Below are positions 17,177 through 39,338 of a DNA stretch of 62,119 bases, piece by piece (positions within the stretch are counted from its first letter, which is position 1; every line of letters begins with the position of its first letter). Made by a program: the position numbers and the translations under genes. The stretch comes from Gluconacetobacter tumulisoli (GTDB lineage Bacteria; Pseudomonadota; Alphaproteobacteria; Acetobacterales; Acetobacteraceae), in the NCBI RefSeq assembly GCF_014174155.1, contig NZ_JABEQM010000017.1, positions 1 to 62,119 on the forward strand, written 5' to 3'. Below the pieces are notes generated by a model. The model made no database searches and was not told where the DNA came from. It saw only the letters and a program-made list of their open reading frames with translations.

Positions 17177-19270
17177 TCAATTTGACGATGTCCGTGCCAC
17201 CACGATCCTGAATCCATTGCCGCGCCAGAATCCGTTCGGCTCGAGACTGCCGCGATAGGTGCAGCAGGCTTTCATCTTGCCGCTGGAGAAACATCCGCCG
17301 CGCAACACCCTGCGCACTGTGACATCGGCGTCGAGCGCTTCACGTCCATCGTCGCGGTAGGGATAGGTGAAGCTTGGATTCGCCATATCCGAGCCCCAGA
17401 GCGTGGTCGTCCACTCCCATATTTGGCCGGCCATATCATCAATGCCAAGCGGCGTACGGCCGCCGGGGCAGATCCCCACCGCGGTCACGACGTTCAGGCC
17501 GAGTTCCGCCGAATTCGACAGGCCCGGTGCCCACGGTCCGGCCCAGGGGTAGCGAACGCTGCCCGGCTGGTCGGGCTGCGCCCCGCGCGCGGCCCATTCC
17601 CACTCCGGTTCCGTCGGCAGACGAACATGCTGGTCGGGCGTAATCCTTCCGCTGGCACGCCACTGCTCGGTCAGCCACGCGCAATAGGCGCAGGCGTCGT
17701 ACCAGGTCAGGTCGGTCGCCGGGGCATTGGAACGTGTAGGCGACGCGGCGTCGGGAGAGGACCATGGCCGCCCGGTGAAAGAGGCGAACGCGCCGTAATC
17801 GGCGTTTGTGACCGGATAGCGCCCGATCAGGAAGGCAGCCACGTCTGCATGATGCACCGGCATCGAGTTGGGGTGGGTGTCCGAGCCGATGACCGCGCGG
17901 CCGGCGGGGATCGCGATCAACTCGCCCAGGTCGCGCGGATCGCCAATCAGCGCGAGGCTCTGCGCCGCGCGATCGCGCAGCGCCAGGGTCGCGTCCCCGC
18001 GTGCGATCATCTCGGCCAGTGCCGCGCGCGCGAACGCCAGCGCATCAGGCGAGGGGTCATAGGTCACGATCATGTCCGCGCCGATCAGGATACCGGTCGC
18101 GAAGGCATCACGCGTCGCGAGCAGGGCGCGGGCGAGTGGTCCGACTTCGCGGCCGTTTGCATGCCAGATTTCCGCAAGCAACGGTATGACTGTGCGCAAG
18201 GCGCGCGGATGTCCGGCGAATGTGCTGACAATCGTCGCAACCTGCGTGCGGGAGAGCGCGTGTGCGGCCAGCGCGGGGATCAGTACCGTACGGGCAAAAG
18301 CGCTGCCCATGACCGGGCCGAGTGAAGCCTCGTTGGATTGGAACGCCGTCTGGTCATCGCAAAGATAAGCAAGGGCCGCGTGCGCCAGCGCGTCGCGCGT
18401 TGCGCCGTCGAACGCCGAGGCAAGCCAGGCGTCGGCCAGAGCAAGCGCGCTGCCCTCAACGGCATGGCCAAGGACGGCGGCGGTCGCGAACAGATCAGGC
18501 CGCCCGCACATCAGGTCCGCATTCGCGACGAGTCCATAGGCCGCCACTGCATTTGCACGCTGTACGCTGTTGAAGTCGATCAGTGTGAATTGGGCGATGG
18601 CATCCGGCACCGGCAGGCTGCGGCAGTAATAATCGTTGCCAAGCAATATCAGGCGCAATGTCGCATGCCGGGCGAGCAGATCGCCCGCCTCCTGCAGTGC
18701 GGCAGAGGGATCCGAAAATTGCTCTATTCCGTCGATGATCAGCAGTACCGTCGGCGGTGCGGGCGCATCAAGTTCCGTATCGAGCCAGGGCGTATGCTCG
18801 TCAATCAGGTCGCTCAGGCTGATGCCGGCGCGTGCCGGGCAGTAGACAGGCCAGGGCACGTCGCCACACCATGACTCTTCCGCGGCCATGCCGAGATCGT
18901 TGCGCGCGACGACACGGCGCAGCTTCGCGAGACCATACTGCGGATCGCCCGTGTGCGCGCCGGCAAGATTGAGCGCAAGATCGAGTGCGAAGCTCGTCTT
19001 GCCTGCGCCCGTGCCGCCGAAGAACAGGCATCCCCGTTCCCGCGTCGCCATTTCCAATGCGGTGAAATGCACCGGCGGACGCGGCGCGTTCGGGTCGGCC
19101 AGCTTGCGCAGGCCTTTGGCCTCCATGTCTTCCTGCGTGTAGCTCACCAGCAGAGGGACGTAGAATGCGCCGATTGCGACAGGCGTGCGCGAACCATCCG
19201 GGAACCAGAGCAGAGGCATCGTGCCGAAACGTTCGATCAGAGATTCGGCCGAGGAGCGCAGGATCGACAT
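17177..19270 (-). CDS. NACHT-like NTPase fused to an FGE/SUMF1 (C-type-lectin-fold) domain
   Basis: A 697-residue two-part protein. Residues about 70-250 form a STAND/NACHT-type P-loop NTPase: Walker A LFFGGTGAGKTSFALDL near residue 87 and Walker B PPTVLLIIDGIEQFSDP near residue 177, followed by a helical stretch. Residues about 457-697 are a formylglycine-generating-enzyme-like domain: RYPVTNADYGAFASFTG, TWYDACAYCAWLTEQW, VRLPTEPEWEWAARG, GIDDMAGQIWEWTTT, VLRGGCF and NGFRIVVA. The two catalytic cysteines of true FGE (spacing CxxxxC four residues after RGG) are not in register here; the strip reads RGGCFSSGKMKACCTYRG. It may therefore bind a ligand rather than modify sulfatases, and no sulfatase gene is nearby. 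It has no signal peptide. It is the last gene of the transporter operon, 9 bp after the VOC gene. Its role is unknown. Confidence 0.8.
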   Translation of the reverse strand: MSILRSSAESLIERFGTMPLLWFPDGSRTPVAIGAFYVPLLVSYTQEDMEAKGLRKLADPNAPRPPVHFTALEMATRERGCLFFGGTGAGKTSFALDLALNLAGAHTGDPQYGLAKLRRVVARNDLGMAAEESWCGDVPWPVYCPARAGISLSDLIDEHTPWLDTELDAPAPPTVLLIIDGIEQFSDPSAALQEAGDLLARHATLRLILLGNDYYCRSLPVPDAIAQFTLIDFNSVQRANAVAAYGLVANADLMCGRPDLFATAAVLGHAVEGSALALADAWLASAFDGATRDALAHAALAYLCDDQTAFQSNEASLGPVMGSAFARTVLIPALAAHALSRTQVATIVSTFAGHPRALRTVIPLLAEIWHANGREVGPLARALLATRDAFATGILIGADMIVTYDPSPDALAFARAALAEMIARGDATLALRDRAAQSLALIGDPRDLGELIAIPAGRAVIGSDTHPNSMPVHHADVAAFLIGRYPVTNADYGAFASFTGRPWSSPDAASPTRSNAPATDLTWYDACAYCAWLTEQWRASGRITPDQHVRLPTEPEWEWAARGAQPDQPGSVRYPWAGPWAPGLSNSAELGLNVVTAVGICPGGRTPLGIDDMAGQIWEWTTTLWGSDMANPSFTYPYRDDGREALDADVTVRRVLRGGCFSSGKMKACCTYRGSLEPNGFWRGNGFRIVVARTSSN

Positions 19271-19279
19271 GGCAGGACC

Positions 19280-19666
19280 TCAGGCGCGGAACAGCGCCGC
19301 GACCGCGGGGTCGTGGAATCGCTGAATTTCGATGGCATACCCTTCGGGATCCTCAAAAAAGAAATGCTCACAGAAATTTCCTTTCTGGATCCCGGTCAAT
19401 TTCGCGACGCCGGCGGTCTGCATCCTCGCATGCCATCCCTCGACATCCTGGGCGACGATCGTCAGCAGGACGGCATTGGTCGGCTGGTGGCGCAAATGGC
19501 CGCGATTGCCGTCTACCATGCCGAAATAGCTGCTGTTGCCGATGCGGTAGATGCGCGCGAGTCCCTGATCCAGAACGAGCTCGAAACCGAGCGTGTGCTC
19601 GTAGAACGGGATGACCGATTCGAGCTTGTCATAGTAAAAAAAGGTGATCGAATAATCCTGTTTCAT
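19280..19666 (-). CDS. VOC-superfamily (glyoxalase/bleomycin-resistance fold) protein
   Basis: 128 residues with the beta-alpha-beta-beta-beta repeat of vicinal-oxygen-chelate proteins: ITFFYYDKLESVIPFYEHTL at the start, LGFELVLDQGLARIYRIGNS next, and FFFEDPEGYAIEIQRF at the end with the usual Glu metal ligand. The frame is open upstream, but the ATG at 19666 is used because it overlaps the stop of the binding-protein gene by 4 bp (ATGA), the junction style of this operon. VOC proteins are metal-dependent lyases, isomerases, dioxygenases or binding proteins. Which of these applies cannot be decided, but operon membership ties it to the imported substrate. Confidence 0.78.
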   Translation of the reverse strand: MKQDYSITFFYYDKLESVIPFYEHTLGFELVLDQGLARIYRIGNSSYFGMVDGNRGHLRHQPTNAVLLTIVAQDVEGWHARMQTAGVAKLTGIQKGNFCEHFFFEDPEGYAIEIQRFHDPAVAALFRA

Positions 19667-21075
19667 GTCCTGTGCTCCGGTTCGAGGTGAAGGATGCCCT
19701 TGTGGTCCAGGCCTATGCCGTGAAGGCCCGGGCGCGTGGCCACGAGCGTCTTGGGGTGCGCCAGATACAGCCACGGCGGTGCCTCGCGCAGATGCGCGAG
19801 GCATGCGCCATAGGCCGCTGCGCGCGCCGTGGGGTCGATGGTCTCGTTGGCGCGGGCGATCAACGTCTCGACGGCGTCGTCGTCGAAGCCCTGCCACCAG
19901 ACACCATGGCTTTCACGGCTGATCTTGTCGTTCAGGACACGGAAGGTGCTGTGCGGCGAGGAGTCGAAAATCGCGATATCGCCCATCGCCTTGTTGCCGA
20001 TCTCCCGCGCGTAGCCGGGCCGGTCGGTTGCGGTGTCGATCCGTACGTCCAGCCCGAGGTCTTCGAGTGCACGCTTGATGAATCCTGCGATTTTCGGTGC
20101 GTGTTCGGGCATGAAAGTGGGGGTGCGCAGCACGACCTCACCCGTGAAACCCAGGGGCGCGAGCAATGCGCGCGCGGCGTCCGGATCATATGGAAGCGGT
20201 GTGATGCCTGCCTCGGCGAACCCGTTATGATACGGGCTGACGATCGTGGCGGCCGGGATGGCGAGCCCGTCGTAGATCTCGCGGCACAGGGCGGCGTTGT
20301 CGATCGCAAGGTTCGCCGCGAGACGCGCCTCGGCCGAGCGAAAAAGCCCCCTGGAGCAATTGAGGTAGGCCATGACCGACAGGCAATGGGTGGCGCCGAG
20401 CCACTGCACGTCGGGTGTGAGGTCGGAAACGTCTTCGAGGCAGTCCATCTGGCATGCCAGGTCGATGCGTCCGGTGCGCAGGCGTTCAAGCCGATCTTCC
20501 GCCTTCGGGACGGCGAAGAAGGTCAGTTCCGGTTCGGTGCCGACCACAGCCGGGTGCAGCGTGGCGGACACGCCTGGCGTGAATTGAGTCACGCGGTAGC
20601 GGCCGGTGCCGATGACCGCACGCGCGTGGGCGTCCTGGCGCGACAGGTAGAATTCCGTGAAGATCTCGGGCAGGTCGCCCATCGGGCGTGCGGTGGTCAC
20701 ACGCAGCGTATCATCGGAGAGTGCGTCGAAATGAACGTCGGCGAAATAGCGTGCGTAGGACCATTTCATGCCGAACATATCGACCGATGTGCAGATCGCA
20801 TCGATAAAGGCGACCACGTCCATGGCCGTGCAGCGATGGCCGTCGTGAAAGACGGCATCGGGACGCAGATGGAAATGCCAGACGGTCCCCTGTGCGTCGC
20901 ATTCCCATCGCGCGAACAGAGCCGGGAAGATCCGGCCATCGCGCCACATGCACAACGGTTCCATGACCAGCGCCTTCAGCGTCAGGATGCTGCGGTCATC
21001 GGTCACACGATTGGCCGGGAAGAAGTCGACTTTTTCCTGCGCGATGGTCAGGGCCGGCGGGCTGGCGGTCGTCAT
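19663..21075 (-). CDS. Family 5 ABC solute-binding protein lacking an export signal
   Basis: 470 residues of the SBP_bac_5 (DppA/OppA/NikA) fold: ILTLKALVMEPLCMW, WHFHLRPDAVFHDGHRC, GTGRYRVTQF, RLAANLAIDNAALCREIYDG and PYHNGFAEAGITPLPYDPD. The true start is the ATG at 21075, which overlaps the upstream permease stop by 4 bp; a longer open frame to 21861 is the permease in another phase. The N-terminus (MTTASPPALTIAQEKVDFFP) has no signal peptide, no lipobox and no twin arginine. That is odd for a periplasmic binding protein. It could act in the cytoplasm as a sensor or sequestering protein, or be exported in another way. A second binding protein with a Tat-like signal is encoded in the same operon. 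Confidence 0.82.
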   Translation of the reverse strand: MTTASPPALTIAQEKVDFFPANRVTDDRSILTLKALVMEPLCMWRDGRIFPALFARWECDAQGTVWHFHLRPDAVFHDGHRCTAMDVVAFIDAICTSVDMFGMKWSYARYFADVHFDALSDDTLRVTTARPMGDLPEIFTEFYLSRQDAHARAVIGTGRYRVTQFTPGVSATLHPAVVGTEPELTFFAVPKAEDRLERLRTGRIDLACQMDCLEDVSDLTPDVQWLGATHCLSVMAYLNCSRGLFRSAEARLAANLAIDNAALCREIYDGLAIPAATIVSPYHNGFAEAGITPLPYDPDAARALLAPLGFTGEVVLRTPTFMPEHAPKIAGFIKRALEDLGLDVRIDTATDRPGYAREIGNKAMGDIAIFDSSPHSTFRVLNDKISRESHGVWWQGFDDDAVETLIARANETIDPTARAAAYGACLAHLREAPPWLYLAHPKTLVATRPGLHGIGLDHKGILHLEPEHRT

Positions 21076-21926
21076 TGTCCGGAGCGCCCTTTCGCGGTCT
21101 GTCGTCTTGGATTGAGATAGTCGGCGATCGCATCGGCGATCAGGTTGAAGGACAGCACGGTCAGCATGATCGACCCGCCAGCGCTGATCAGCACCCAGGG
21201 CGCCACACGCACGTAGTCGAGGTTGGCGGCGATATCGGCGCCCCACTCCGCCGTTGGCGGCTGTGCGCCAAGACCCAGGAACCCGAGGCTTGCCACCTGC
21301 AGGATCGCTGTTCCGACCGACAGGGCGCCCAGCGTCAACAGCGGTGCAATCCCGTTGCGCAGGACATGGCGCGTCATGATTCGCAGGCCCGGCACGCCGA
21401 TCACCCGTGCGGCTTCGACATAGAGGGTGCCGGCGATGCGTTGGGCCTGGCTGCGGGCGAGCCGCGCGAATTGCGGTGTCATGGTGATCGAGATCGCGAG
21501 CATGGCGTCCAGCAGCCCCGGACCGAGTGCCGCGGCCAGTGCGATCGCAAGCACGAGCGCCGGAAAGCTGAGGACCGCATCGACCAGGCGCATCGCGACA
21601 GCGTCGAACAGACCACCATAGAACCCCGCGAATGTGCCAAGCGTGACGCCGGCGACGAACGCGATCCCGACCACGCCCACACCGATGGCCAATGTGTGTC
21701 GCCCGCCGTACAGCGTGCGGGCGAGGACATCGCGACCGAAAAGGTCGGTGCCGAATGGATGCGTCAGCGACGGCGCGCGCAGCATGCGCGTCACGTCCAG
21801 CGCGGTTGGTGTATGGCCTGCGAACAGGGGCGCTGCACCGACCAGCACGACCATCGTACACAGGATCGCCAGTCCGAACCGGCCGCCGCGATGACGGAGC
21901 ATATGCCGCAGCAAGGGATTGTTCAT
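21072..21926 (-). CDS. Peptide-type ABC transporter permease (DppC/OppC-like)
   Basis: 284 residues with about six membrane helices. The start RFGLAILCTMVVLVGAAPLF and the block LTHPFGTDLFGRDVLARTLYGGRHTL are characteristic of DppC/OppC/NikC permeases. The EAA loop is ARVIGVPGLRIMTRHVLRNG near residue 165, the surface that touches the ATPase subunits. It pairs with the DppB-like permease, whose stop lies 10 bp upstream of this start. It overlaps the following binding-protein gene by 4 bp. It forms half of the inner-membrane channel; the two ATPases are in the separate unit at 29.1-31.1 kb. Confidence 0.88.
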   Translation of the reverse strand: MNNPLLRHMLRHRGGRFGLAILCTMVVLVGAAPLFAGHTPTALDVTRMLRAPSLTHPFGTDLFGRDVLARTLYGGRHTLAIGVGVVGIAFVAGVTLGTFAGFYGGLFDAVAMRLVDAVLSFPALVLAIALAAALGPGLLDAMLAISITMTPQFARLARSQAQRIAGTLYVEAARVIGVPGLRIMTRHVLRNGIAPLLTLGALSVGTAILQVASLGFLGLGAQPPTAEWGADIAANLDYVRVAPWVLISAGGSIMLTVLSFNLIADAIADYLNPRRQTAKGRSGQ

Positions 21927-21936
21927 GACAGGCGCC

Positions 21937-22953
21937 TCATCCCCGACCCCGGTCCTGACGGAGCCGCGGGTCGAGCGCGACGCTCAGCAGGTCCGCCGCC
22001 AGCGACATCAGCATGAACATCAGCGCAAAAACCAGGGTCGTGCTCTGGATCACCGGATAGTCGCGGGCGCGGATGGCTTCGAACATGTAGCGCCCGACGC
22101 CCGGCCAGGAAAAAACCGTCTCGGTCAGGATCGCGCCGCCCAGCATGTCGCCGAACTGCACGCCCAGGACCATGATCGACGGGCCGATGGCGTTGGGAAG
22201 CGCATGCTTCAGCAGGATCGCGCGCTCGGTCAGGCCTTTCGCGCGCGCGGTGCGGACGTAATCCTCGGACAGCGTGTCGATCATCGTATTGCGCAGGAAC
22301 CGCCCCAGCGTGGCGGCCAGAAACGCCGCCAGCACGGTCGCAGGCAGCAGGATATGCGCCGCAAGATCGCCGAACGTCGTCAGGTGGAATGTCAGAAGGC
22401 TTCTTGTCAGCGCGAAGCCGCCCTGCTCCTCGCCGACAGCAAAGGCGCTGTTTCGACCGGCGACCGGCAGCACGCCCAGCCACGCGCTGAACACATATTG
22501 CAGCCCGAACGCCAGCAGAAACGCCGGGATCGACACCCCGCACAGAGAGAGGAACTGCAGCGTGCGATCGACGGGGCCGCCGGGCCTGCGCGCGGCCAGG
22601 ATGCCTGCGGGAATGCCGCCCAGCAGCGCCAGCGCGAAGGCGGCGAACGCCAGTTCGATCGTGGCCGGCAGGCGCGCGGCCAGTTCGCTCGCGACCGTGC
22701 GGCCCGTCTTGATCGACGCGCCGAGATCCCCCCGTGCAAGGCCCCCGACATAGTCGATGAACTGCTGCAGGGCGGGTCGGTCGAGCCGCAGTTCGTGGCG
22801 GAGAGCGTCGATCTGGGCGGTTGTCGCGCCCGGGCCCAGCAGCGTTTCGGCGGGGTCGCCCGGGATCATGCGTGTCAGGCCGAAGACGATGACCAGAACG
22901 AGTGCCAGGACCGGCAGCATCGCGATCAGGCGCCGCAGCGCATAGGCGATCAT
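21937..22953 (-). CDS. Peptide-type ABC transporter permease (DppB/OppB-like)
   Basis: 338 residues. The opening MIAYALRRLIAMLPVLALVL and FGLTRMIPGDPAETLLGPGA is the classic DppB/OppB N-terminus. The EAA loop reads EDYVRTARAKGLTERAILLK near residue 230, followed by HALPNAIGPSIMVLGVQFGD, and the end LLSVALDPRLR is also family-typical. It starts with a 4-bp ATGA overlap on the stop of the Tat-type binding protein, so the two are translated together. With the DppC-like subunit it builds the transmembrane pore for a small peptide, ureide or amino-acid derivative. Confidence 0.9.
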   Translation of the reverse strand: MIAYALRRLIAMLPVLALVLVIVFGLTRMIPGDPAETLLGPGATTAQIDALRHELRLDRPALQQFIDYVGGLARGDLGASIKTGRTVASELAARLPATIELAFAAFALALLGGIPAGILAARRPGGPVDRTLQFLSLCGVSIPAFLLAFGLQYVFSAWLGVLPVAGRNSAFAVGEEQGGFALTRSLLTFHLTTFGDLAAHILLPATVLAAFLAATLGRFLRNTMIDTLSEDYVRTARAKGLTERAILLKHALPNAIGPSIMVLGVQFGDMLGGAILTETVFSWPGVGRYMFEAIRARDYPVIQSTTLVFALMFMLMSLAADLLSVALDPRLRQDRGRG

Positions 22954-24545
22954 GGATACGCCCGTGTCTTGGACACGCTCCAGTATTCGTTCAGTGGTGG
23001 GGTCGACTTGACCACAAGTCCCTGGACCTCCTTGCGGGCGAAGACGATGACCTTGTTGGTGAACAGGTACACCGCCGGGACGCGCGCCATCAGGCGCGCC
23101 TGGATCTGGCCATACAGGGTCTTGCGCCGCGTCGGGTCGATTTCGGTCTGCGCCTGCAGGATCAAGCCGTCGAGCGCCGTATCGGGCGGCATGCGAAACG
23201 TCATGGCGGTCTCGGCCAGTCCGGAGAGATAGCCGATGGTGATATGCGCGTCCGGATCATTGTACCACGGTTCGCGTCCGTCGAGGGCGGCCTCGAAACG
23301 ACCGGCGACGTGCAGGGCGCGCAGACTTGGAAATTCCATCTGCTCGATGCGCGCGTCGATCCCCACGGCGGCGAGGCTGGCCTGCAGGAACGTCGCGACC
23401 GCCGCCCAGAATGTGCCCTCGAATGTATAAAGCGAGATCTGGAGCGCGCCGGGCGCGTAGCCGGCCGCCGCGAGCAGCGCGCGCGACTGCTGCGGGTCGT
23501 AGTGGGGCGCCAGGGACCGCATGGCCGGATCGAACGCCCAGTTGGTGGTCGGCAGCGGCCCATAGGCCCGGTCGACCGTGCCCGCGAGCACGCCATCGAC
23601 CAGCCCGTCATAATCGACGGCGTGGGCGATGGCCTTGCGCACGCGCAGATCGGTGACGGGCCCCCCGGTTGCGCGGTTGTTGAACTCCAGTTGCCGCATG
23701 ATCTGGCTGGAGATCTCGATGACCTGAATCTCGGGATTGCGCCGGAACGAGTCGATGTCGGCCATGGGTAGCGACGTCAGCTGCGCATGCTGCTGGCAGA
23801 TGTCGATCTCGCCGCGCTCCAGTTCCAGCCTGCGCGTCGATGCGTCGGCAATGACGCGGTAGACAAGAAATTCCAGCGTCGATGGCCCGCGGAAATAGGA
23901 CGGATTGCGCACAAGCGTCAGGCCGACATCGGGCGTGTAGCTTTGCAGGCGAAAGGCCCCTGTTCCGACCGGGTGGCTGGCGAAATCCGGGCCGAGGCGG
24001 CGGACGGCGGTTGGACTGACGATGCCGCTCTGTGGCTGTGCCAGCAGGGACAGGAAGAACGGAACCGGGCGCAGGAGCACGATGTCGAGCGTCAACCGGC
24101 CCGTGACCTCGAAGCGTTCGACGGCATCGAGGCTGGCGCGCATGTACGGGTTGAGCCTGCGCGTGCGCTCGAGCGAGAAGCGCACGGCCTCGGCGTCACA
24201 CGGCGTGTCGTCGTGGAACGTGAGTCCCTCGCGCAGGGTGAAGGAATAGCGTCGGCCGTCGTCGCCGACGCGCCAGCTTTCGGCCAGACGACCTTGCGGT
24301 TCGGCGTCGCTGTCGCGCGCCCAGGACACCAGCGGGTCGAAGATATTGACGATGATCTCGCTGCCGATGGGCTCTGCCCGGTTCGCCGCGGGTTCCAGCC
24401 CCACGGGGTCGGACCCGATCGCGACGACCAGCACCTTTTCCCGGTCGATGGGGGCCGCGGCACGGCCGGGACGCAAGCGGCCGACGGCGAGGCCGGCACC
24501 GGCGAGACCGGCCAGAAGCAGGTCGCGACGGTCAGCGCAGAGCAT
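22950..24545 (-). CDS. Family 5 ABC solute-binding protein with Tat-like signal
   Basis: About 531 residues. The N-terminus has a twin-arginine motif and hydrophobic run (DRRDLLLAGLAGAGLAVG), so the protein is probably exported folded to the periplasm. The body is a family 5 binding protein: EPIGSEIIVNIFDPLVSW, RRYSFTLREGLTFHDDTPCD, GTGAFRLQSYTPDVGLTLVR and RVRKAIAHAVDYDGLVDGVL. I prefer the ATG at 24545 (AGG upstream) because the alternative ATG at 24602, which overlaps the previous stop by 4 bp, lies inside an AT-rich palindrome that is probably an operator. It captures the substrate and feeds it to the DppB/DppC-like channel encoded next. Confidence 0.85.
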   Translation of the reverse strand: MLCADRRDLLLAGLAGAGLAVGRLRPGRAAAPIDREKVLVVAIGSDPVGLEPAANRAEPIGSEIIVNIFDPLVSWARDSDAEPQGRLAESWRVGDDGRRYSFTLREGLTFHDDTPCDAEAVRFSLERTRRLNPYMRASLDAVERFEVTGRLTLDIVLLRPVPFFLSLLAQPQSGIVSPTAVRRLGPDFASHPVGTGAFRLQSYTPDVGLTLVRNPSYFRGPSTLEFLVYRVIADASTRRLELERGEIDICQQHAQLTSLPMADIDSFRRNPEIQVIEISSQIMRQLEFNNRATGGPVTDLRVRKAIAHAVDYDGLVDGVLAGTVDRAYGPLPTTNWAFDPAMRSLAPHYDPQQSRALLAAAGYAPGALQISLYTFEGTFWAAVATFLQASLAAVGIDARIEQMEFPSLRALHVAGRFEAALDGREPWYNDPDAHITIGYLSGLAETAMTFRMPPDTALDGLILQAQTEIDPTRRKTLYGQIQARLMARVPAVYLFTNKVIVFARKEVQGLVVKSTPPLNEYWSVSKTRAYP

Positions 24546-24598
24546 GGCGGGGACCTGGCATTGATGCTCCGGACATGGCGGCGCAGCAGCGCTCGGTC

Positions 24599-30102: not shown

Positions 30103-31097
30103 GCGTTGGCCTGCAACGGATGCCAGCATCGTACGAAACCACCCCCGGCGCGTTCGGACGGGGAGGGATAGTGTATGCGACAGCTGTCGGTGGCATGTGC
30201 GCAACGCGGCGCGAAGGTGCATCCCGATGGCAGTTCGCGCAGATCCGGCACGCTGCCTGGAATGGCGTAAAAGCGCTCTGCGTCGATATCGAGATCAGGC
30301 ATCGAGGCAAGAAGGCCACCCGTGTATGGATGGTCCGGCCTGGCAAACATCGTTTCGACGTCGCCGCTTTCGATGATCCGGCCCGCATACATCACCGCGA
30401 CGCGGTCGGCGTAGGACGCCACCACCCCCAGATCGTGCGTGATCATCAGAATGGCCATGCCGCGTCGCGTCCGGAGGGTATGCAGCAGGTCCATGATCTG
30501 CTTTTGAATCGTGACGTCGAGTGCGGTGGTCGGCTCGTCCGCGATCAGCAGCGCCGGGTCGCAGGCGATCGCCATCGCGATCATGACGCGCTGGCACATG
30601 CCGCCGGACAATTCATGTGGATAGGCGTCGTAACGGCGTGCCGGGTCGGTGATGCCGACCTCATCGAGCAGCGCGACGGAGCGCGCCCGCGCCTCGGCGC
30701 GCGAAAGCGGGACATGCGCGCGCAGCGTCTCCGCGATCTGTGCGCCGACGGTGCGCAGGGGGTTCAGCGCCGACATGGGGTTCTGGAAAATCATGGACAG
30801 ACGGCGGCCGCGCACACGACGCATCGCACGTTCGGACATCGTGCCGAGGTCCTCGCCCGAGAGGCGGATCGTCCCGCTGACATGCAGCCCCTCTGCCGCC
30901 CCGGCCAGTCGCATGATGGCCAGGGATGTCATGCTCTTGCCGCAGCCGGATTCACCCAGAAGCGCCAGCATCTCTCCCTGGCGAACATGCAAGCTCAGGT
31001 CGTCGACGATCGTCACCCCCCCGTCCGTCGTGGCGACGGTCAGATGACTGACCTCGAGCACCGGCGGCGCAGGGGAGAGGGCATGCGCAAGCTCCAT
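30099..31097 (-). CDS. Peptide-type ABC transporter ATPase (OppD/DppD-like)
   Basis: 332 residues. Walker [22 protein letters not shown]-loop [20 protein letters not shown], signature [16 protein letters not shown] and Walker [19 protein letters not shown] are all intact. The C-terminal [12 protein letters not shown] strip is typical of oligopeptide/dipeptide ATPases. Its start shares one base with the stop of the MalY/PatB gene (TGATG), and its stop overlaps the OppF-like ATPase by 4 bp. The ATPases are thus transcribed with the sulfur and ureide enzymes, while the channel and binding proteins lie in the neighbouring unit, an unusual split for one transporter. Confidence 0.9.
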
Positions 31098-32285: not shown

Positions 32286-33683
32286 TCAGTGGAACCAGCA
32301 TGTGTCGCCGCGCCGCACATAGGCGCCACGTCCGGGTGTGTTGACGATGGCGCTGCCGTCCCAGGCAAGGTCACCGCGCAGATAGGTTTTCGTCACGCGA
32401 CCGGCAAAACGATGGCCGTCGAACGGACTCCAGTTCAACGCGTCATGGGCGTGTGCACTGTCCCACACATGTTCGCCGGGCGTGAAGATGACGATGTCGG
32501 CGTCGGCGCCAATGCGCAGTGCACCCTTGCGCGGCCAGAGGCCGAAGAACCGGGCGGGTCGCTCGCTCAGTTGCGCGGCCGTCAGCCTGGGGGCGTCGAG
32601 CCCGCGACGCGCGGCCTCGGTAAAGAACGCGGGCAGCAGCGTCTCGAGACCCGGTACGCCCGCGCCCGCATCGAAGATCGATGCCGCATTCTTGTTGTCG
32701 ATCGGCCAGCTGGAATGATCGGAGCTGACGAACGCCACGCGCCCGTCGAGGATTTCCTGCCACAGGCCGTCGCGCGCGTTCGGCCGGATCGGTGGATTGA
32801 CCTTCATGCGCGCGCCGAGCGCCGGACCATGTTCCTGCGGGTCGAGGACCAGGTAATGCACGCAGGTCTCCCCCGTCGCGCGGTGGCCGAGTGCGCGGTA
32901 CTGTTCGGTAAGCTGGAAGCCGCGGGCGGTGGAGAAATGCACGAGATGCGCATGCGCGCCGCTTGCCGCACCGAGTTCCAGAAAGGCCGCCGAGGCCGCC
33001 AGTTCGGCCGCGATGGGGCGGCTGTCCGAATGGGCGGCGATTCCCTCGCGCCCCGCCGACCGGGCGGCGGCAATTCCGGCGCGCACCATTTCCTGATCCT
33101 CGTTGTGCAGGCCGAGCGGGATATCGGTGCCGGAGAGTGCCGCGAAGATCGCGTGGGTCTGGTCTGCGGTGATGCGCGGGAAACGTGTCGGGCTGCTTTC
33201 GAACGAGGAGATCTTGAACGCGACGACCCCCCCTTCGACCAGCGGCGCGATGTCGTCGATGCCTTGTCCCGGCATGACGGTCGCGTAGAGCGCGACATCG
33301 CAATGTGCAGACGTTTCGATGGCCTCTATTTTTGCCGCAAGGCGTTCCTGGTTGTTCAGCGGTGCGGGATTGTCGTACGGCATGTCGACAATGGTGGTGA
33401 TGCCGCCTGCGATCGCGGATCGGGTCGTCGACTCGATGCCCGGCAGGCCACGGCAACTTCCCGCATGTGTCTGGCCGTCCACGACGCCCGGCAGGATGTA
33501 GCTGCCGGTGGCGTCGGTCGTTCTCGTGGCCGCAGGCGGCTTGCCCGCGCCGATTGCCGCGATCACGCCGTCACGCATGCCGATCCAGCCGTTCTCGATA
33601 GTCTCTGTCGGGGTCACGATATGACCCAGGATGATTTCGTCCACGGCCGTATGTCTTTCCGGATGCCGCAAAGGGGAGGGCAC
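32286..33683 (-). CDS. Cyclic amidohydrolase (allantoinase/dihydropyrimidinase-like) with altered metal motif
   Basis: 465 residues of the dihydroorotase/allantoinase/hydantoinase superfamily. Visible are the leading beta-sandwich strip (IGMRDGVIAAIGAG), the entry motif ILPGVVDGQTHAG near residue 70, the lysine that is carboxylated in the family (VVAFKISSF near 155), His in IPLGLHNEDQ and in AHLVHFSTARG, and Asp in FVSSDHSSW. In the family the entry motif is D-x-H-x-H; here its first His is replaced by Gln (D-G-Q-T-H). One metal site may be weakened or changed. The enzyme would hydrolyse a cyclic amide such as a hydantoin or allantoin. A GTG near 33644 is a possible alternative start. It follows the rhodanese gene by 6 bp. 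Confidence 0.83.
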   Translation of the reverse strand: MPSPLRHPERHTAVDEIILGHIVTPTETIENGWIGMRDGVIAAIGAGKPPAATRTTDATGSYILPGVVDGQTHAGSCRGLPGIESTTRSAIAGGITTIVDMPYDNPAPLNNQERLAAKIEAIETSAHCDVALYATVMPGQGIDDIAPLVEGGVVAFKISSFESSPTRFPRITADQTHAIFAALSGTDIPLGLHNEDQEMVRAGIAAARSAGREGIAAHSDSRPIAAELAASAAFLELGAASGAHAHLVHFSTARGFQLTEQYRALGHRATGETCVHYLVLDPQEHGPALGARMKVNPPIRPNARDGLWQEILDGRVAFVSSDHSSWPIDNKNAASIFDAGAGVPGLETLLPAFFTEAARRGLDAPRLTAAQLSERPARFFGLWPRKGALRIGADADIVIFTPGEHVWDSAHAHDALNWSPFDGHRFAGRVTKTYLRGDLAWDGSAIVNTPGRGAYVRRGDTCWFH

Positions 33684-33689: not shown

Positions 33690-34550
33690 TCAGCCGGGTT
33701 CCGGACCGATGGCGACGGGGCGCCGGGGGTCAGCGGACCAGGCGGACCACGATCCGGGATACATCGGCGCTTCGATCCCCAGCATCATCAGCACGGCGAC
33801 ATTGTGCGCCGCCGATACGCCCGCGCCGCAATAAACGCCAACCGGCGCGCTTCCATCGGCTTTTGCCGCGGCATAGAGACGGCGCAGGGTTTCCAGATCG
33901 GCGAAATGACCGTCGACGGTCAGATTGTCGGGTGCGGGGATGTTGCGCGCGCCCGGGATATGGCCGCGCGGCGGCGTGCCGGGCGACGTCGCCCCGCCAC
34001 GATAGTTCGGTGCGATGCGGGAATCGAGCAGCACGCCGGAGCGGGCGAGGGATGCCGCGGCATCGATATCGAGTTCCGGCATGCCGCCCGCGCGCAGGAT
34101 CACGTCACTGGGCGTGGCGGGCGCGGGGACCGTGTCGGTCACAGCCAGGCCGGCCGCCGACCAGGCCGGGAACCCGCCGTCCAGCATCAGAACATTTGTG
34201 AAGCCGGCCCATTTGAGCACCCACCAGGCCCGTGCCGCCTGCAGGTTGCCGTCATGGTCGTAGACGACGACGGGCTGGTCGAGCCGCAGCCCCCAGCGAC
34301 GCGCGGCTGCCTGTAACGCCTCGATCGCAGGCAGGGGGCGTGACCCATGCACCGGATGGCTGGGGCTGGCGAAATCCGTCCCCAGTTCGGTGTCGATCGC
34401 GCCCGGGATGCGCGGTGCCTGCGCGAAGGGGCGGGGGCATGATGTGTCGTCCGATCGGACAGCAAGGATGGCAGGCGCCTGACCGGCCGCGATCAGGGCC
34501 GACAGGGTCGGCACCGATATCAGAACTGTATCGCGTTGGTCATCGGGCAT
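33690..34550 (-). CDS. Two-domain rhodanese / 3-mercaptopyruvate-type sulfurtransferase
   Basis: 286 residues with tandem rhodanese domains. The first has PRIPGAIDTELGTDFASPSH, VVVYDHDGNLQAARAWWVLK and VLMLDGGFPAWSAAGL, with Asp where an active Cys would be. The second ends with the catalytic loop VGVYCGAGVSAAHNVAVL: Cys-Gly-x-Gly-Val, the form found in 3-mercaptopyruvate sulfurtransferases (CGSGVTA) rather than thiosulfate rhodaneses. It transfers sulfane sulfur to a thiol or cyanide acceptor. It is the leading gene of the 34.5-29.1 kb unit, directly before the cyclic amidohydrolase and C-S lyase. That makes it a key hint that the substrate carries sulfur. It is likely cytoplasmic. Confidence 0.88.
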   Translation of the reverse strand: MPDDQRDTVLISVPTLSALIAAGQAPAILAVRSDDTSCPRPFAQAPRIPGAIDTELGTDFASPSHPVHGSRPLPAIEALQAAARRWGLRLDQPVVVYDHDGNLQAARAWWVLKWAGFTNVLMLDGGFPAWSAAGLAVTDTVPAPATPSDVILRAGGMPELDIDAAASLARSGVLLDSRIAPNYRGGATSPGTPPRGHIPGARNIPAPDNLTVDGHFADLETLRRLYAAAKADGSAPVGVYCGAGVSAAHNVAVLMMLGIEAPMYPGSWSAWSADPRRPVAIGPEPG

Positions 34551-34578: not shown

Positions 34579-35337
34579 TTAGAGTGGAACGGTGGAGTTG
34601 TGCGCGCTGAGCAGGGAAGTCGTCAGACCGGCGCGCGTGCTTTCGGTATGTTTCGCCATGATCTGGCCTGCGGCGACGTGGTCGCGGCTGCGCAGAACTG
34701 TGACGATCTCGGCATGTTCCTGGTTTGTCTCCATATTGACGTCGCGTTTGCGGGCGCCGATGTAGAAAAACCGTTCGCTTTCCTCGAGATGGCTGATGAC
34801 CAGTGCACTCAGGCGCGGGTTCTGCGAGCCTTTTGCGATCGCGACATGAAAGTCGCGGTTCGCATTGATGAAATAATCGATGCTGCTTTCTTCGGCGACG
34901 TCATAGGACGCACTCGCCAGCCTCTCCAGACGATCGAGGTCCTCGGTCGTCATGTTCTGCGCCGCGAACGAGGCGGCTGTTCGTTCAAGGACGGTGCGCA
35001 CGGCGAACAGGTCGTTGATATCCTTGATCGTAACCGGGCGAATACGATAGCCGCGCCGGGGGTAGATATCGAGGAGGCCCTCCATCGCAAGGCGGGCCAG
35101 GGCCTCACGGACCGGCGTCTTGCTCATGCCGAGGCGCTCGGCCAGGTCGAGCTCGGAGACATCGCTGTCCGGCGGAAGCTGGCAGGTGATGATCTCCCGT
35201 CGCAGCAGGGCATAGGCCTGATCCGTTAGAGACGGCTCGCGACGGGATCCGGCGCGTGTTCCTTGGTTCAGCGCAAGCTTGCTCAAAATCCGGCCTTTCA
35301 CAGATGGAATGCGATGCCGAGCATAAGCGCCTTCCAT
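34579..35337 (-). CDS. GntR-family (FCD type) regulator, second of two
   Basis: 252 residues. The winged helix is LTDQAYALLRREIITCQLPP followed by LDLAERLGMSKTPVREALAR, and the FCD domain shows INDLFAVRTVLERTAASFA, YFINANRDFHVAIAKGSQNP and EHAEIVTVLRSRDHVAAGQI. The first about 30 residues (before PSLTDQAY) are not conserved, so the real start may be a downstream GTG. It stands divergent to the racemase gene across a 102-bp gap that contains the inverted repeat at 35358-35379. It could therefore control both directions: the racemase and TonB receptor side, and the rhodanese operon 28 bp beyond its own stop. Confidence 0.87.
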   Translation of the reverse strand: MEGAYARHRIPSVKGRILSKLALNQGTRAGSRREPSLTDQAYALLRREIITCQLPPDSDVSELDLAERLGMSKTPVREALARLAMEGLLDIYPRRGYRIRPVTIKDINDLFAVRTVLERTAASFAAQNMTTEDLDRLERLASASYDVAEESSIDYFINANRDFHVAIAKGSQNPRLSALVISHLEESERFFYIGARKRDVNMETNQEHAEIVTVLRSRDHVAAGQIMAKHTESTRAGLTTSLLSAHNSTVPL

Positions 35338-35357
35338 CTCTCTGGTAAGGTATCCTA

Positions 35358-35379
35358 TGATATATTAAGAGGCATATCA
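35358..35379. promoter_or_regulatory. Inverted repeat TGATAT-N10-ATATCA, candidate operator
   Basis: An inverted repeat of TGATAT and ATATCA separated by ten bases lies in the 102-bp divergent gap between the second GntR gene and the racemase gene. The left arm continues as TGATATATTA, the same string as in the palindrome at 24601-24624. Either GntR protein could bind it and control both promoters. Confidence 0.45.
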
Positions 35380-35439: not shown

Positions 35440-36108
35440 ATGGGTAAGATATTGGTTGTCAATCCGAACTCATCACGTTCGGTGACGGAGTCGATGCGCG
35501 CCTGCACGAAAGGCCTGGAGGCGCTGGTTCCGCATCGTATTGAGTGGAAAACGAATGAAAAGGGGCCAGCCGGGATCGAAACCGACGCGCATGTCGGCGA
35601 GGTCGTGCCGCATCTGCAGGAAATCGTAGCCTCATCCGATGCCGATGCTTTCGTGGTGGGATGCTTCTCCGATCCGGCCGTGCCGCTGCTGCGCCATGAG
35701 ACGGGGCGTCCCGTGGTCGGCCTGGCCGAAGCCGCATGCCGATATGCGATGTCACTGACGCGGCGTTTCGGGATCATTTCGATCGTCGATGCGTCCGTTG
35801 TGCGCCACAGGGCGCAGGTGGAGGCCATCGGAATTGAAGGATGGCTTGCCGGCGATCGCGCGCTGCAACTTGGGGTTGCGGAACTTGGAGGGGGTGGCAC
35901 GCTCGAGCGCTTGCGCGTGGTAGGCCAGCAACTGCGTGACGATGACGGCGCGGAAGCGCTGATCCTGGGCTGCGCGGGGCTGGGGCGCTATCGATCGTCG
36001 TTGGAAGCCGTGCTGGAGGTGCCTGTCATCGATCCGGTCATGGCATCGGTCGCCCACGTTAACATGGCGCTCATGCTCGCCAGGTCCGATGGTGGCCCGG
36101 TCTCATAA
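35440..36108 (+). CDS. Asp/Glu/hydantoin racemase family protein (hydantoin or allantoin racemase type)
   Basis: 222 residues. It begins KILVVNPNSSRSVTESM, the usual N-P-N-S/T start of hydantoin racemases. The two active-site cysteines are present in DAFVVGCFSDPAVPLLR near residue 79 and EALILGCAGLGRYRS near residue 180, in the two-base geometry of this family. The enzyme would interconvert enantiomers of a 5-substituted hydantoin or allantoin so that the stereospecific amidohydrolase and carbamoylase can use both. It is divergent from the second GntR gene and lies about 200 bp before the TonB receptor, probably on one transcript or under the same control. Confidence 0.87.
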   Translation: MGKILVVNPNSSRSVTESMRACTKGLEALVPHRIEWKTNEKGPAGIETDAHVGEVVPHLQEIVASSDADAFVVGCFSDPAVPLLRHETGRPVVGLAEAACRYAMSLTRRFGIISIVDASVVRHRAQVEAIGIEGWLAGDRALQLGVAELGGGGTLERLRVVGQQLRDDDGAEALILGCAGLGRYRSSLEAVLEVPVIDPVMASVAHVNMALMLARSDGGPVS

Positions 36109-36240
36109 CGGCCGCATAAAAAAACTGACCCTGTCGCGCCGTGAACACGCCCCGAATTAAGTTGCGGAATAAAAACAAAAAAATCTGCCGGTGGCGTGTG
36201 CCTTGAGCGCGCGCAATGTGTGAGTGGGTCATAAATCAGT

Positions 36241-36271
36241 TGATATTTGTTTTGATATTCCATCTGATATT
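36241..36271 (+). repeat. Three TGATATT direct repeats at exact 12-bp spacing upstream of the TonB receptor
   Basis: TGATATT occurs at 36241, 36253 and 36265, each exactly 12 bp apart, within the AT-rich 200 bp before the receptor gene. A degenerate fourth copy (TCATAAA) sits at 36229. The 12-bp period is close to one helical turn, so a regulator could bind in series along one face of the DNA. The unit resembles the TGATAT arms of the element at 35358. Confidence 0.5.
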
Positions 36272-36311
36272 TCAGGACTGGAATTTCCTCAGGTGAAGAG
36301 TTCGTTTTGAA

Positions 36312-38696
36312 ATGAGCATGACCCCCAGACGCGTCGCACTCCTTACCTTCACGGCGTTGAGCGCACTGTCCTCGACAGCTGTCGCACAGAGCGTCAACAG
36401 CAACGTCACCGAACGCGGCGTGCAGGCGTCGGGTGACGAGGCCGTCATCGTCACCGGCACGCGTGAAAGCGGAAAGCGCGCCCGCGACAGCCTCAATCCG
36501 ATTGACGTGATCTCGTCCCGGGAATTGTTGCGGACGGGCCAGACCAACGTTCGTGACGCGCTGATGCAACTGCTGCCGTCGGTCAGTCACCAGACCCAGG
36601 GTACGACGGTCGGTGCGCTGACCGACTCGATTAATCTGCGCGGCCTCAGCCCGAACCAGACGCTGATCCTGGTCAATGGCAAGCGTCGCCATACGACGAC
36701 GAACATCCAGACCGACGCGGGTCCGTTCCGCGGTTCGACGCCCGTGGATATCGACCTGATCCCGATTTCGATGATCGATCATATCGAGGTCCTGCGTGAC
36801 GGCGCGTCCGCGCAGTACGGCTCGGACGCGGTCGCGGGGGTGGTCAACATCATTCTGAAATCGTCCGACCATGGCGGGACGGCGTCCGACGAAGCGGGCG
36901 CGTATGGCGAAGGCGACGGTTTTACCAATAACTTCAATATTGATCATGGCTTCAGCCTCGGCAGTCGCGGCTGGCTGCATGCGGGCCTGAGCTACCTGCA
37001 CCGCGACCGCACCGACCGCACGAGCGTCGACGCCCGCACGGGACTATATGACAGCCACTGGATCGGCGATCCGGAGACCGACCGCATCGCCGCGGCGATC
37101 ACGGGGGCGTACAGCCTGACACGGGGGATCGAGGCCTATACGACCCTGACCTACGCCCATCGCACGGCGGACACGTTCCAGATCTTCCGCCTGCCCAGCA
37201 CCCTGCCGACGCTGTATCCCAACGGCTTTTCGCCGATGCTTGGGATCACCGAAAACGACTATGCGGCGACGCTGGGCCTGCGCGGTGGCAACCTCGGCGG
37301 GTGGGACTGGGATCTGAGCAGTACCTATGGCGGTGATCGCACGAATATCGGCATGACGAATTCGGCGAATCTGAACATTTACCAAGCGACCGGCGCCACG
37401 GATACGAGCTTCCACCTCTCGGATTCCGCCGCGACGCAGCTGACGAACAATTTCGACGTCAAGCGGGCGTTCAAGCCCTCGTTCTGGGCCTTCCCGATTA
37501 ACGTCGCCCTCGGTGCCGAGCAGCGGTTCGAAACCTATTCGATCGGCCAGGGCAGCTACGAGTCCTATGCGATGGGCGGCTCGCAGGCGGTGGTCGGTGT
37601 GCAGCCGCAGAGCGCGGGCACGCATTCGCGCGTGGTCTATGGTGTCTATGGCGATGTCTCGACGAAACTGACGAGCAAGCTCCAGGTCGACCTTGCCGGA
37701 CGTTTCGAGCATTATACCGATTTCGGTAATACCGAGGCGGGAAAAATCGCAGCGCGTTACGACTTCAACAAGTATTTCGGTATCCGCGGCACCGTCAACA
37801 ATTCCATCCGTGCGCCGACGCTGGCGGAAGAATATCACACGTCGGCTACCGTCACGACGACCGGCGCGACGGGCGAACTGCCTCCGAACTCGCCGGGTGC
37901 GCGCCTTCTGGGCGCCAGCGCGCTGAAGCCGGAGCGTTCGACGAATGTCACCGCAGGGTTCGTATTGCATCCGCTGCATGATTTCGACATCGCGGTGGAT
38001 GCTTATCAGCTCGATATCCGCGATCGTATCCTTGACGGGGGCACCTATAGCGGTGCGATGGCAATCGCCGCGTATGAAGCGAATGGGCGCACGCTTCCTT
38101 CGAACGTGGCTCTGTCGGGTGTTTCCGCGTCATATCTGACGAACGGGGCGAGCACCCGGACGCGCGGCGTGGACATCACGGGCAATTATCGCATCGATCT
38201 GAAGAGCCATGGCCGTCTGGTGGTGGATGCCGCGTTGAACCTCAATGAGACAAGCATTCGCCATATCGGAACGAACACGCTGGGCCGCAGCCTGCTGAAT
38301 GCGCAGCAGGTCGCGTATCTGACGACCGATGCGCCGCGCAACGTCCTGATCTTTGGCGGCACGTGGACGCAGGGCCGTTGGAGTGTGAGCCTGCATGAGA
38401 TGCGTTATGGTCACATCTTCGACCAGATGACGATCCAGCAGGGCACGAATGCCTATTCGACCAGCGTCTTCGCGCCCTACACACTGCATCCGCGGTTCAT
38501 CACGAATCTCAGCGTCTCCTACAGCCCGGCAGAGCGCTGGACGGTTACGGTGGGGGCGAACAATCTGTTCAATACTTATCCCAACCACGTACCGTATGCC
38601 GCCACCTACTACAACCAGACCCATTATGATCGCTACGCCCAGCAGATCGGGTTCAATGGCGGGTTCTACTATTCGAACGTCTCCTACCGGTTCTGA
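36312..38696 (+). CDS. TonB-dependent outer-membrane receptor of the ureide/sulfur locus
   Basis: 794 residues. A signal peptide (ALLTFTALSALSSTAVAQ) is followed by a TonB-box-like strip (DEAVIVTGTRESGKRARDS) and a plug domain with VRDALMQLLPSVSHQTQGTT, LILVNGKRRHTTTN and IDHIEVLRDGASAQYGSDAV. The barrel ends in Phe after NVSYRF. Plug wording such as the R-D-G-A-S-A-Q-Y-G-S-D stretch is typical of receptors for organic substrates and siderophores alike. It is the only outer-membrane transporter of the 17-39 kb locus, so it presumably brings in the compound handled by the ABC transporter and the amidohydrolases. It is preceded by the 12-bp direct repeats and followed by a long hairpin. Confidence 0.9.
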   Translation: MSMTPRRVALLTFTALSALSSTAVAQSVNSNVTERGVQASGDEAVIVTGTRESGKRARDSLNPIDVISSRELLRTGQTNVRDALMQLLPSVSHQTQGTTVGALTDSINLRGLSPNQTLILVNGKRRHTTTNIQTDAGPFRGSTPVDIDLIPISMIDHIEVLRDGASAQYGSDAVAGVVNIILKSSDHGGTASDEAGAYGEGDGFTNNFNIDHGFSLGSRGWLHAGLSYLHRDRTDRTSVDARTGLYDSHWIGDPETDRIAAAITGAYSLTRGIEAYTTLTYAHRTADTFQIFRLPSTLPTLYPNGFSPMLGITENDYAATLGLRGGNLGGWDWDLSSTYGGDRTNIGMTNSANLNIYQATGATDTSFHLSDSAATQLTNNFDVKRAFKPSFWAFPINVALGAEQRFETYSIGQGSYESYAMGGSQAVVGVQPQSAGTHSRVVYGVYGDVSTKLTSKLQVDLAGRFEHYTDFGNTEAGKIAARYDFNKYFGIRGTVNNSIRAPTLAEEYHTSATVTTTGATGELPPNSPGARLLGASALKPERSTNVTAGFVLHPLHDFDIAVDAYQLDIRDRILDGGTYSGAMAIAAYEANGRTLPSNVALSGVSASYLTNGASTRTRGVDITGNYRIDLKSHGRLVVDAALNLNETSIRHIGTNTLGRSLLNAQQVAYLTTDAPRNVLIFGGTWTQGRWSVSLHEMRYGHIFDQMTIQQGTNAYSTSVFAPYTLHPRFITNLSVSYSPAERWTVTVGANNLFNTYPNHVPYAATYYNQTHYDRYAQQIGFNGGFYYSNVSYRF

Positions 38697-38736
38697 TGAA
38701 TCTGTTTTCGTAACCGTCAATCTGATGAACGGCAAC

Positions 38737-38780
38737 TGGATCACCACCATGAGGATGCCGTGCCTCATGGTGGTGATCCA
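38737..38780 (+). terminator. 18-bp perfect-stem hairpin after the TonB receptor gene
   Basis: An uninterrupted 18-bp inverted repeat (TGGATCACCACCATGAGG and its complement) with an 8-nt loop starts 40 bp after the receptor stop. It is an obvious transcript-end hairpin, but there is no T-run after it, so it may instead stabilise the mRNA 3' end or depend on Rho. The stem is unusually long and exact. Confidence 0.6.
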
Positions 38781-38915
38781 CGAAGTGCGCCTGCGGCGTG
38801 TCCCGTTGCCTGCGCCCTTTCGGAATGTCGGTCTGCCGTGGGAAGCGCTGCCGCGCGTTCGGGCAGATTGCCGTCTATCTTTAGCTATATCCAATCACTC
38901 TGACAGAGCGGACCG

Positions 38916-39338
38916 ATGTCGAAACCTTTTCACCTCGCATTTTCAGTCGACGATCTTGATGCGGCTCGTCATTTCTACGGAACGGTCCTGGGGTGCGCCG
39001 AAGGGCGCAGCAGCGAGACCTGGATCGACTTCGACCTCTATGGGAACCAGATTGTCACGCACAAAGTCCTGACGGCACCGAAGCCCACCGATTGCGGTGG
39101 TGCGGTTGACGGCCACAATGTACCGATCCCGCATTTTGGTGTGGTTATGGACATGGAGTCCTGGCACGTGCTGGCGGCGCGCATGAAGGCCGCGAATGTG
39201 CGCTTCGGCATGGAGCCGTACGTTCGTTTTCAGGGACAACCTGGCGAGCAGGCGACGATGTTTGTCTTCGACCCCGCCGGAAATGCGCTCGAATTCAAGG
39301 CATTCAAAGATATATCATCTCTTTTTGAAAAAAACTGA
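38916..39338 (+). CDS. VOC-superfamily protein, second of the locus
   Basis: 140 residues of the glyoxalase/VOC fold with plausible metal ligands: His in KPFHLAFSVDDLDAARHFYG, His in VPIPHFGVVMDMESW, and Glu in FVFDPAGNALEFKAFK. The spacing fits the H-H-E pattern of extradiol or lyase-type members. It follows the TonB receptor, separated by the long hairpin, and so may have its own promoter. It is not a duplicate of the VOC gene at 19.3 kb; the sequences differ throughout. The substrate is unknown, but two VOC genes at opposite ends of one catabolic locus suggest a metal-dependent ring or C-S chemistry step. Confidence 0.82.
   Translation: MSKPFHLAFSVDDLDAARHFYGTVLGCAEGRSSETWIDFDLYGNQIVTHKVLTAPKPTDCGGAVDGHNVPIPHFGVVMDMESWHVLAARMKAANVRFGMEPYVRFQGQPGEQATMFVFDPAGNALEFKAFKDISSLFEKN

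Follow-up and report, generated by a model that had tools for sequence, protein, structure and literature searches.

A contig of Gluconacetobacter tumulisoli (NCBI RefSeq NZ_JABEQM010000017.1), of which positions 1-62,119 are here called the window, carries at positions 17177-39338 a locus that joins a ring-opening amidohydrolase and a racemase to sulfur enzymes and to transport genes. About 12 of these genes form a discrete, co-inherited set with a testable operator, so that the inducer and the substrate can be sought directly. The reading that we favour, whose chances we put at roughly even, is an inducible system to take up and degrade a cyclic amide or ureide that contains sulfur, the ring most likely being derived from cysteine or an S-substituted cysteine. 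What we observed directly, and describe below, are the families of the genes, their co-conservation, catalytic residues and an operator-like site.

Gene content and organization of the locus

The sequence-only reading had listed a racemase, a cyclic amidohydrolase, an M20 enzyme, PatB, a rhodanese, a 2-hydroxyacid dehydrogenase, a CapA protein, two VOC proteins, an ATP-binding cassette (ABC) transporter and a TonB receptor, and every one of these genes was confirmed at 17177-39338 by Pfam, NCBIfam and PDB searches. The same stretch also holds two GntR/FCD regulators, a second SBP_bac_5 protein and a 697-aa protein that combines a P-loop NTPase with a C-terminal SUMF1/FGE domain.

Read downward from 35337 on the minus strand, the genes encode the regulator GntR1 (34579-35337; PF07729, PF00392; its true start possibly lies further in), a 3-mercaptopyruvate-sulfurtransferase-type rhodanese (MST; 33690-34550; PF00581), an ErtD-like cyclic amidohydrolase (32286-33644), a pyridoxal-phosphate (PLP) C-S lyase of PatB/MalY type (31097-32251), the Opp/Dpp-type ATPases OppD (30099-31097) and OppF (29146-30102; both PF00005 and PF08352) and a second regulator, GntR2 (28227-28961; PF07729, PF00392). 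They are followed by an M20 amidase of hydantoinase/carbamoylase type (26980-28230), a CapA/PGA_cap-family protein of MslH (peptide epimerase) type (25616-26944), a D-2-hydroxyacid dehydrogenase (HADH; 24599-25609; PF02826, 189.7 bits), the solute-binding protein SBP1 (22950-24602; SBP_bac_5, PF00496, 257.9 bits), the Opp/Dpp-type permeases OppB (21937-22953; PF00528, PF19300) and OppC (21072-21926; PF00528), the second binding protein SBP2 (19663-21075; PF00496, 145.7 bits), the VOC-family protein VOC1 (19280-19666; PF00903) and the P-loop/SUMF1 protein (17177-19270; PF03781, 127 bits; Walker A/B-like motifs). The plus strand carries the Asp/Glu/hydantoin racemase (35440-36108), the TonB-dependent receptor (36312-38696; PF00593, PF07715) and VOC2 (38916-39338; PF00903).

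Adjacent minus-strand genes overlap or lie at most 50 bases apart, except for the 184 bases that separate OppF from GntR2 under the chosen starts; for OppF, VOC1, SBP2, PatB and the amidohydrolase we chose the start ourselves, in the case of OppF and SBP2 by eye. Two other assignments were tried and ruled out: 17177-19270 as the TonB receptor, since that stretch matches SUMF1 and the receptor lies on the plus strand, and a locus lacking a racemase with CapA in its place, since the plus strand encodes a PF01177 racemase.

The sulfur genes are conserved partners of the amidohydrolase

The earlier proposal of a link between the sulfur enzymes and the ring-opening enzymes is borne out by conservation, both in genomes of the family Acetobacteraceae and in plasmid records. 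The ErtD-like amidohydrolase occurs at 66-100% identity in three of 397 family genomes, namely the source genome, Ameyamaea and Lichenicola, and in all three MST and PatB lie beside it or at most one gene away. The neighbourhood search that the sequence-only reading had suggested thus recovered the locus in two further genera, and the outcome that would have spoken against it, sulfur genes not kept next to the amidohydrolase in relatives, is the opposite of what was found. All three genomes place the TonB and racemase genes divergently from GntR1-MST-amidohydrolase, which is followed by PatB-OppD-OppF. In Lichenicola an SDR gene is inserted before PatB, and SBP1-OppB-OppC-SBP2-VOC1-SUMF1 stands about 4 kb further on, on the opposite strand. 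Ameyamaea and Lichenicola have the TonB receptor (81% and 69%, respectively) adjoining the racemase, and GntR2 has no counterpart in the Ameyamaea locus. Because the arrangement recurs in other genera, the grouping reflects more than chance.

Among 72,556 plasmid records, the eight best for MST, for the SUMF1 protein and for VOC1 are the identical eight; the same records supply eight of the top nine for PatB and eight of the 19 listed amidohydrolase rows at at least 56% identity. PatB is close in six of them: all five genes fall within about 16 kb in five records, and the sixth (Alloyangia) has them across the origin of the record. In the remaining two, PatB lies about 51 kb away (Terrarubrum) and about 300 kb away (R. 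rhizoryzae). Five of the eight loci were mapped gene by gene, the other three being placed by match coordinates. The mapped order is SUMF1-VOC1-SBP2-OppC-OppB-SBP1-MST, OppDF, GntR1, then racemase-amidohydrolase-DapA-SDR-PatB, in one piece in three loci and spanning the origin in two, with DapA-like genes in four of the five and an SDR gene in three; GntR1 is the gene next to the racemase in relatives. Departures from this order are seen in Neorhizobium (SUMF1 and DapA genes fragmented, no SDR before PatB), Terrarubrum (no DapA, SDR or PatB following the amidohydrolase) and Alloyangia (GntR1 after PatB, amidohydrolase fragmented). On the Alloyangia pacifica plasmid (L171 226-1634 and flanks, L172), the amidohydrolase pieces are annotated as hypothetical proteins and insertion sequence elements flank the system on both sides.

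The possibility that the sulfur genes are passengers was considered and rejected: MST and PatB were missing, whether judged by annotation or by similarity, from the first six amidohydrolase relatives inspected, but searches with MST and PatB themselves revealed the eight records.

Families and active sites of the ring-opening and sulfur enzymes

The racemase matches PF01177 at 158.2 bits and keeps both cysteine motifs of its family, whose cysteines we take to be catalytic; its best solved relatives are putative hydantoin racemases (3qvj). The best NCBIfam model for the amidohydrolase is ErtD (NF058538), at 513 bits under a cut-off of 600. In the metal site (HxH, Lys, His, His, Asp), the first His is replaced by Gln, while the Lys, both later His and the Asp are kept. 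The resulting Gln-x-His is found in 9/9 distinct relatives at at least 56% identity (besides the window) and in the ErtD-like proteins of two further loci, L075 and L076; the first metal His is retained as His in 25 of 29 relatives at 40-49%. The protein of L075, which scores over the ErtD cut-off, has both Gln-x-His and an RFP loop motif in common with the amidohydrolase of the window.

PatB exceeds the cut-off of TIGR04350 (410.5 against 340 bits) and carries the PLP lysine motif SKTYNIAGLK. For MST, the best-scoring models and structures are those of mercaptopyruvate sulfurtransferases; its active loop reads CGAGVSA, with CGAGMSA in relatives, and CGxG is the MST-type active loop. Orthologues of the racemase, MST and PatB retain these motifs wherever they are readable. 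The conservation of PatB and an MST-type enzyme makes cysteine, or an S-substituted cysteine, the likely sulfur carrier.

Regulation

The palindrome TGATAT-N10-ATATCA at 35358-35379, between GntR1 and the racemase, is the only perfect copy in the 3.96-Mb genome. Seven genomic sites match with at most one mismatch, two of them in the locus, and the backward control pattern gives one site. The second site in the locus (36253-36274, one mismatch) lies upstream of the TonB gene within a run of three TGATAT units at 12-bp spacing (36241-36274); similar repeats precede the TonB gene in Ameyamaea and Lichenicola, as judged by eye, with some mismatch and without a chance rate.

When loci with adjacent GntR1 and racemase genes were counted, 10/10 intergenic regions (the window and nine other loci) held an operator-like site with at most two mismatches in 12 positions; L143, L100, L168, Alloyangia and G1129 stand outside this count. 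Each site in the nine other loci had a frequency of at most 0.01 in letter shuffles, which preserve letter composition alone, and the motif may be favoured in AT-rich promoters. Two L143 stretches inspected by eye showed no operator-like site. Judged from sequence, TGATAT-N10-ATATCA is the predicted operator by which GntR1 probably regulates the divergent genes. GntR2 may be the own regulator of the M20-CapA-HADH genes.

The SUMF1/P-loop protein, VOC1 and transport

The SUMF1 domain keeps RGGCF in 7/7 readable C-termini and a CC pair in six of the seven. SUMF1-like proteins occur in seven of the 397 family genomes, in one genome besides the source in a phylum sample of 398 (G1129, with a locus of the Rhizobial type), and in the source genome only in a class sample (1/385, at a stricter E-value). 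A defence role for the protein found no support (PADLOC E 0.00018, 19 bits). VOC1 is 65-73% identical in the eight plasmid records, the next match standing at 41%, and the ABC transporter is complete, of Opp/Dpp type, with two binding proteins. The conserved locus provides a context for the SUMF1/P-loop fusion.

A separate M20-CapA-HADH module

The sequence-only reading had treated the racemase, the amidohydrolase and the M20 enzyme as three classical steps of one unit. This was not upheld: M20 sits in a separate M20-CapA-HADH module, which none of the five mapped plasmid loci contains. The enzyme itself scores 263.7 bits against a cut-off of 204 for TIGR01879 and 510.6 against 461 for PRK12891, with the L-carbamoylase 3n5f as its best solved relative, and it is present in the window and Ameyamaea loci. 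The two nearest plasmid M20 relatives lie on a different Terrarubrum plasmid and, in Rhizobium sp. SSA_523, at a distance of about 430 kb from the locus. HADH has weak matches, at 30% in Neorhizobium and 39% in Lichenicola.

Gluconobacter, Acetobacter, Komagataeibacter and Gluconacetobacter have loci in which M20 and CapA stand together, frequently accompanied by HADH and VOC2, and in which MST and PatB are missing; in one such Gluconobacter locus an amidohydrolase relative lies about 9 kb off. Across 29 loci with CapA at at least 50% identity, counted after duplicates and loci without a full-length CapA had been dropped, M20 was found within the set distance in 11, HADH in eight, VOC2 in nine, an ErtD-like gene in three, and MST with PatB in one (Ameyamaea).

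CapA as an MslH-like protein

CapA aligns nearly end to end with MslH (chain 8gq9, E 2.9e-101) and scores 361 bits with the NCBIfam MslH model, under its cut-off of 700. The calcium ligands of MslH are E44, N87, H259 and H261 and its His/Asp dyads H88/D91 and H295/D11, according to the portion of the published description consulted (PMC10406935). All eight residues are kept in CapA. They are complete in 40 of 43 MslH-like rows (one being that of the window) versus 0/18 weaker PGA_cap rows, the two groups being split at a score gap (192 vs 97 bits), with fragment L086 placed among the 43 and with open reading frames below 250 aa and duplicates dropped. At MslH position 261, 17 of the 18 weaker PGA_cap rows (L030-L033, L035-L038, L057-L066) have Gly where the MslH-like rows have His, a difference that could serve as an annotation test. 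Lasso peptide genes were absent among the annotated genes of the locus, for which no dedicated search was made.

In 18/50 loci an MslH-like CapA gene has an M20 gene at most 2 kb away and transcribed from the same strand, a count without a chance rate in which many genomes are closely related and four loci (L046, L098, L101 and L106) are seeds that match by construction; the M20 profile was built from 11 seeds, after three of eight own-genome seeds had fallen out. These M20 neighbours belong to different subfamilies. Other MslH-like CapA genes adjoin D-aminoacylase and alanine racemase genes, or peptidases and ABC transporter genes. We propose, by inference from these residues and neighbours, that CapA would epimerise open-chain N-acyl or N-carbamoyl amino acids; several MslH-like CapA loci without an amidase or peptidase partner of these kinds speak against this. 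The proposal matters in that many MslH-like "CapA family" proteins are labelled as capsule synthesis in plasmid records, and in several loci they adjoin amidases, peptidases and importers.

On two roseobacter plasmids, genes for an Opp-type transporter, a "dapE" M20 amidase and an MslH-like CapA stand in a row (L098 6355-14287; L101 1372-9287). The loci L075 and L076, from same-genus genomes (G011 and G010), carry, in succession, an MslH-like CapA, a PuuE-like allantoinase gene, and an ErtD-type amidohydrolase with an MFS transporter; in L075, the one that was scored, PuuE reaches 350 of 425 bits. No relative of the window's racemase was found, and CapA might act as the racemase there.

Proposed pathway and alternative explanations

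Under the favoured reading, the families and their co-conservation suggest that the compound would enter by way of the TonB receptor and then the ABC transporter of Opp type, served by two binding proteins. Early steps on the compound or on its sulfur may fall to VOC1 and the SUMF1/P-loop protein, the racemase would equilibrate the alpha carbon of the ring, and the ErtD-like amidohydrolase would open it. In this genome and in Ameyamaea, the M20 amidase could then take off an N-carbamoyl or N-acyl group, and epimerisation of the open-chain N-acyl amino acid by the MslH-like CapA would make both of its forms usable; in the Rhizobiales/Rhodobacterales loci, DapA-like and often SDR enzymes would stand in place of M20 and CapA. 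PatB would eliminate the sulfur to give a thiol or sulfide, pyruvate and ammonia, and MST and HADH may handle sulfane sulfur or mercaptopyruvate-like products. A literature search (open-licence PMC) found no published pathway matching this gene set. A more far-reaching version, to which we give distinctly less than even chances, is an undescribed sulfur-cyclic-amide pathway on alphaproteobacterial plasmids and chromosomes, with early SUMF1/P-loop and VOC steps, joined in acetic acid bacteria by a calcineurin-fold, calcium-dependent epimerase of the MslH kind that would act as a catabolic N-carbamoyl/N-acyl amino acid racemase.

Several observations weigh against the favoured reading. We infer every reaction, the order of the steps and the substrate from the genes. 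With Gln standing where the first metal His would be, the metal site of the amidohydrolase is uncertain; MST reaches 99.4 bits with the NCBIfam MST model, under its cut-off of 250, and the MST and PatB families serve other roles too. Eleven of the 19 listed amidohydrolase relatives at at least 56% identity lie outside the eight best MST/VOC1/SUMF1 records. Among the eight of these eleven that were inspected, MST and PatB matches were found in none, yet the racemase stands beside the amidohydrolase in six and a DapA-like gene in seven; in two of them, Microvirga and Ensifer, there is in addition a relative of VOC1 at about 40%, as well as a transporter of Opp type that has two binding proteins. 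A racemase plus an amidohydrolase alone therefore does not imply sulfur: the pair is a general front end whose back ends differ. Four of the seven family genomes with a SUMF1-like protein show only the transporter, VOC1 and SUMF1 in the examined stretch; in one of them (G412), whose contig ends there, a D-hydantoinase over its cut-off lies just upstream. M20 and CapA were likewise not found in 5/5 mapped plasmid loci or in the examined Lichenicola stretches, and the core must therefore function without them.

An alternative that we rate as rather unlikely combines two independent systems: a conserved sulfur/ring system and, embedded in it, an M20-CapA-HADH(-VOC2) module that would serve a different N-acyl amino acid or peptide. 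The occurrence of the module without MST or PatB in four genera of acetic acid bacteria, and its possible own regulator GntR2, are consistent with such a division. Against it, here and in Ameyamaea the module lies on one strand, with the ATPase genes of a single ABC transporter on one side of it and the permease genes on the other, and in the two same-genus loci L075 and L076 the ErtD-like gene is one gene from an MslH-like CapA, the scored one exceeding the ErtD cut-off. One special case of the favoured reading, in which the compound is a cysteine heterocycle like 2-aminothiazoline-4-carboxylate (ATC), appears unlikely. The DL-ATC route of Pseudomonas, as far as the consulted part of its description goes, runs through a racemase, a ring hydrolase, an N- or S-carbamoyl-cysteine hydrolase and a cysteine desulfhydrase, and cysteine desulfhydrase activity is reported for E. 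coli MalY (PMC10821248). Racemase, M20 and PatB/MalY are present in our locus with functions in the same order; however, its ring opener is an ErtD-like amidohydrolase, M20 lies outside the conserved set, and the described route, in that same part, has no place for MST, VOC1 or SUMF1.

Use of ergothioneine or a thiohydantoin, with the amidohydrolase opening hydantoin-5-propionate or its 2-thio form and M20 releasing glutamate, seems to us quite improbable. ErtD is the best model for the amidohydrolase, ErtE is among the M20 matches, and the Gln-x-His and RFP motifs recur in L075; but ErtD at 513 of 600 bits and ErtE at 284 of 520 both remain under their cut-offs. No aromatic lyase, ergothionase, urocanase-like or thiourocanate-hydratase-like gene was found among the scanned locus genes, other Ert enzymes not being searched by model, and the sole urocanase match of the genome lies on another contig (C3). 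PatB and MST are not known to have a part in the Ert route. Allantoin use with unrelated passengers, offered by the sequence-only reading as the simpler alternative, fits worse and is in our judgement very improbable: the racemase, amidohydrolase and M20 families would suit its three steps, yet the allantoinase model gives 279.3 bits against a cut-off of 357.85 and AllC 218.1 against 597.75, the sulfur genes are conserved partners rather than passengers, and the five mapped plasmid loci lack M20.

Neighbouring genes

Elsewhere in the window, trehalase/MGH1-like and GH3 glycosidases beside an MFS_2 sugar transporter and a TonB receptor (3317-11884, minus strand) look like a glycoside-use locus. 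At 12637-15984 on the plus strand, a KdgT permease, an SBD_N/NBD_C (DUF1537-type) kinase and a PdxA-family dehydrogenase stand in a row, which we take to be an apparent four-carbon acid-sugar (threonate/erythronate-type) catabolic operon. A HupE/UreJ-type membrane protein adjoins a DUF3500 protein at 39540-42001 on the minus strand.

Comparison with known systems

The locus shares the logic and order of functions of the Pseudomonas DL-ATC route, in so far as that route was consulted, and differs in having additional conserved genes. Its amidohydrolase is closest to ErtD of ergothioneine utilisation (ErtD/ErtE) and shares its Gln-x-His site with an ErtD-type protein, yet falls below the ErtD cut-off. 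Compared with MslH, the lasso peptide epimerase, CapA shows full-length homology and all eight catalytic residues identified in the consulted part of its description; in contrast, it scores under the model cut-off and sits with an amidase and a transporter. Hydantoin utilisation employs a racemase, a hydantoinase and an N-carbamoylase, and all three enzyme families are found in the locus. Here, however, the carbamoylase lies outside the conserved set and PatB, MST, VOC1 and the SUMF1-type protein lie inside it, together with an Opp-type transporter and, in three genera, a TonB receptor.

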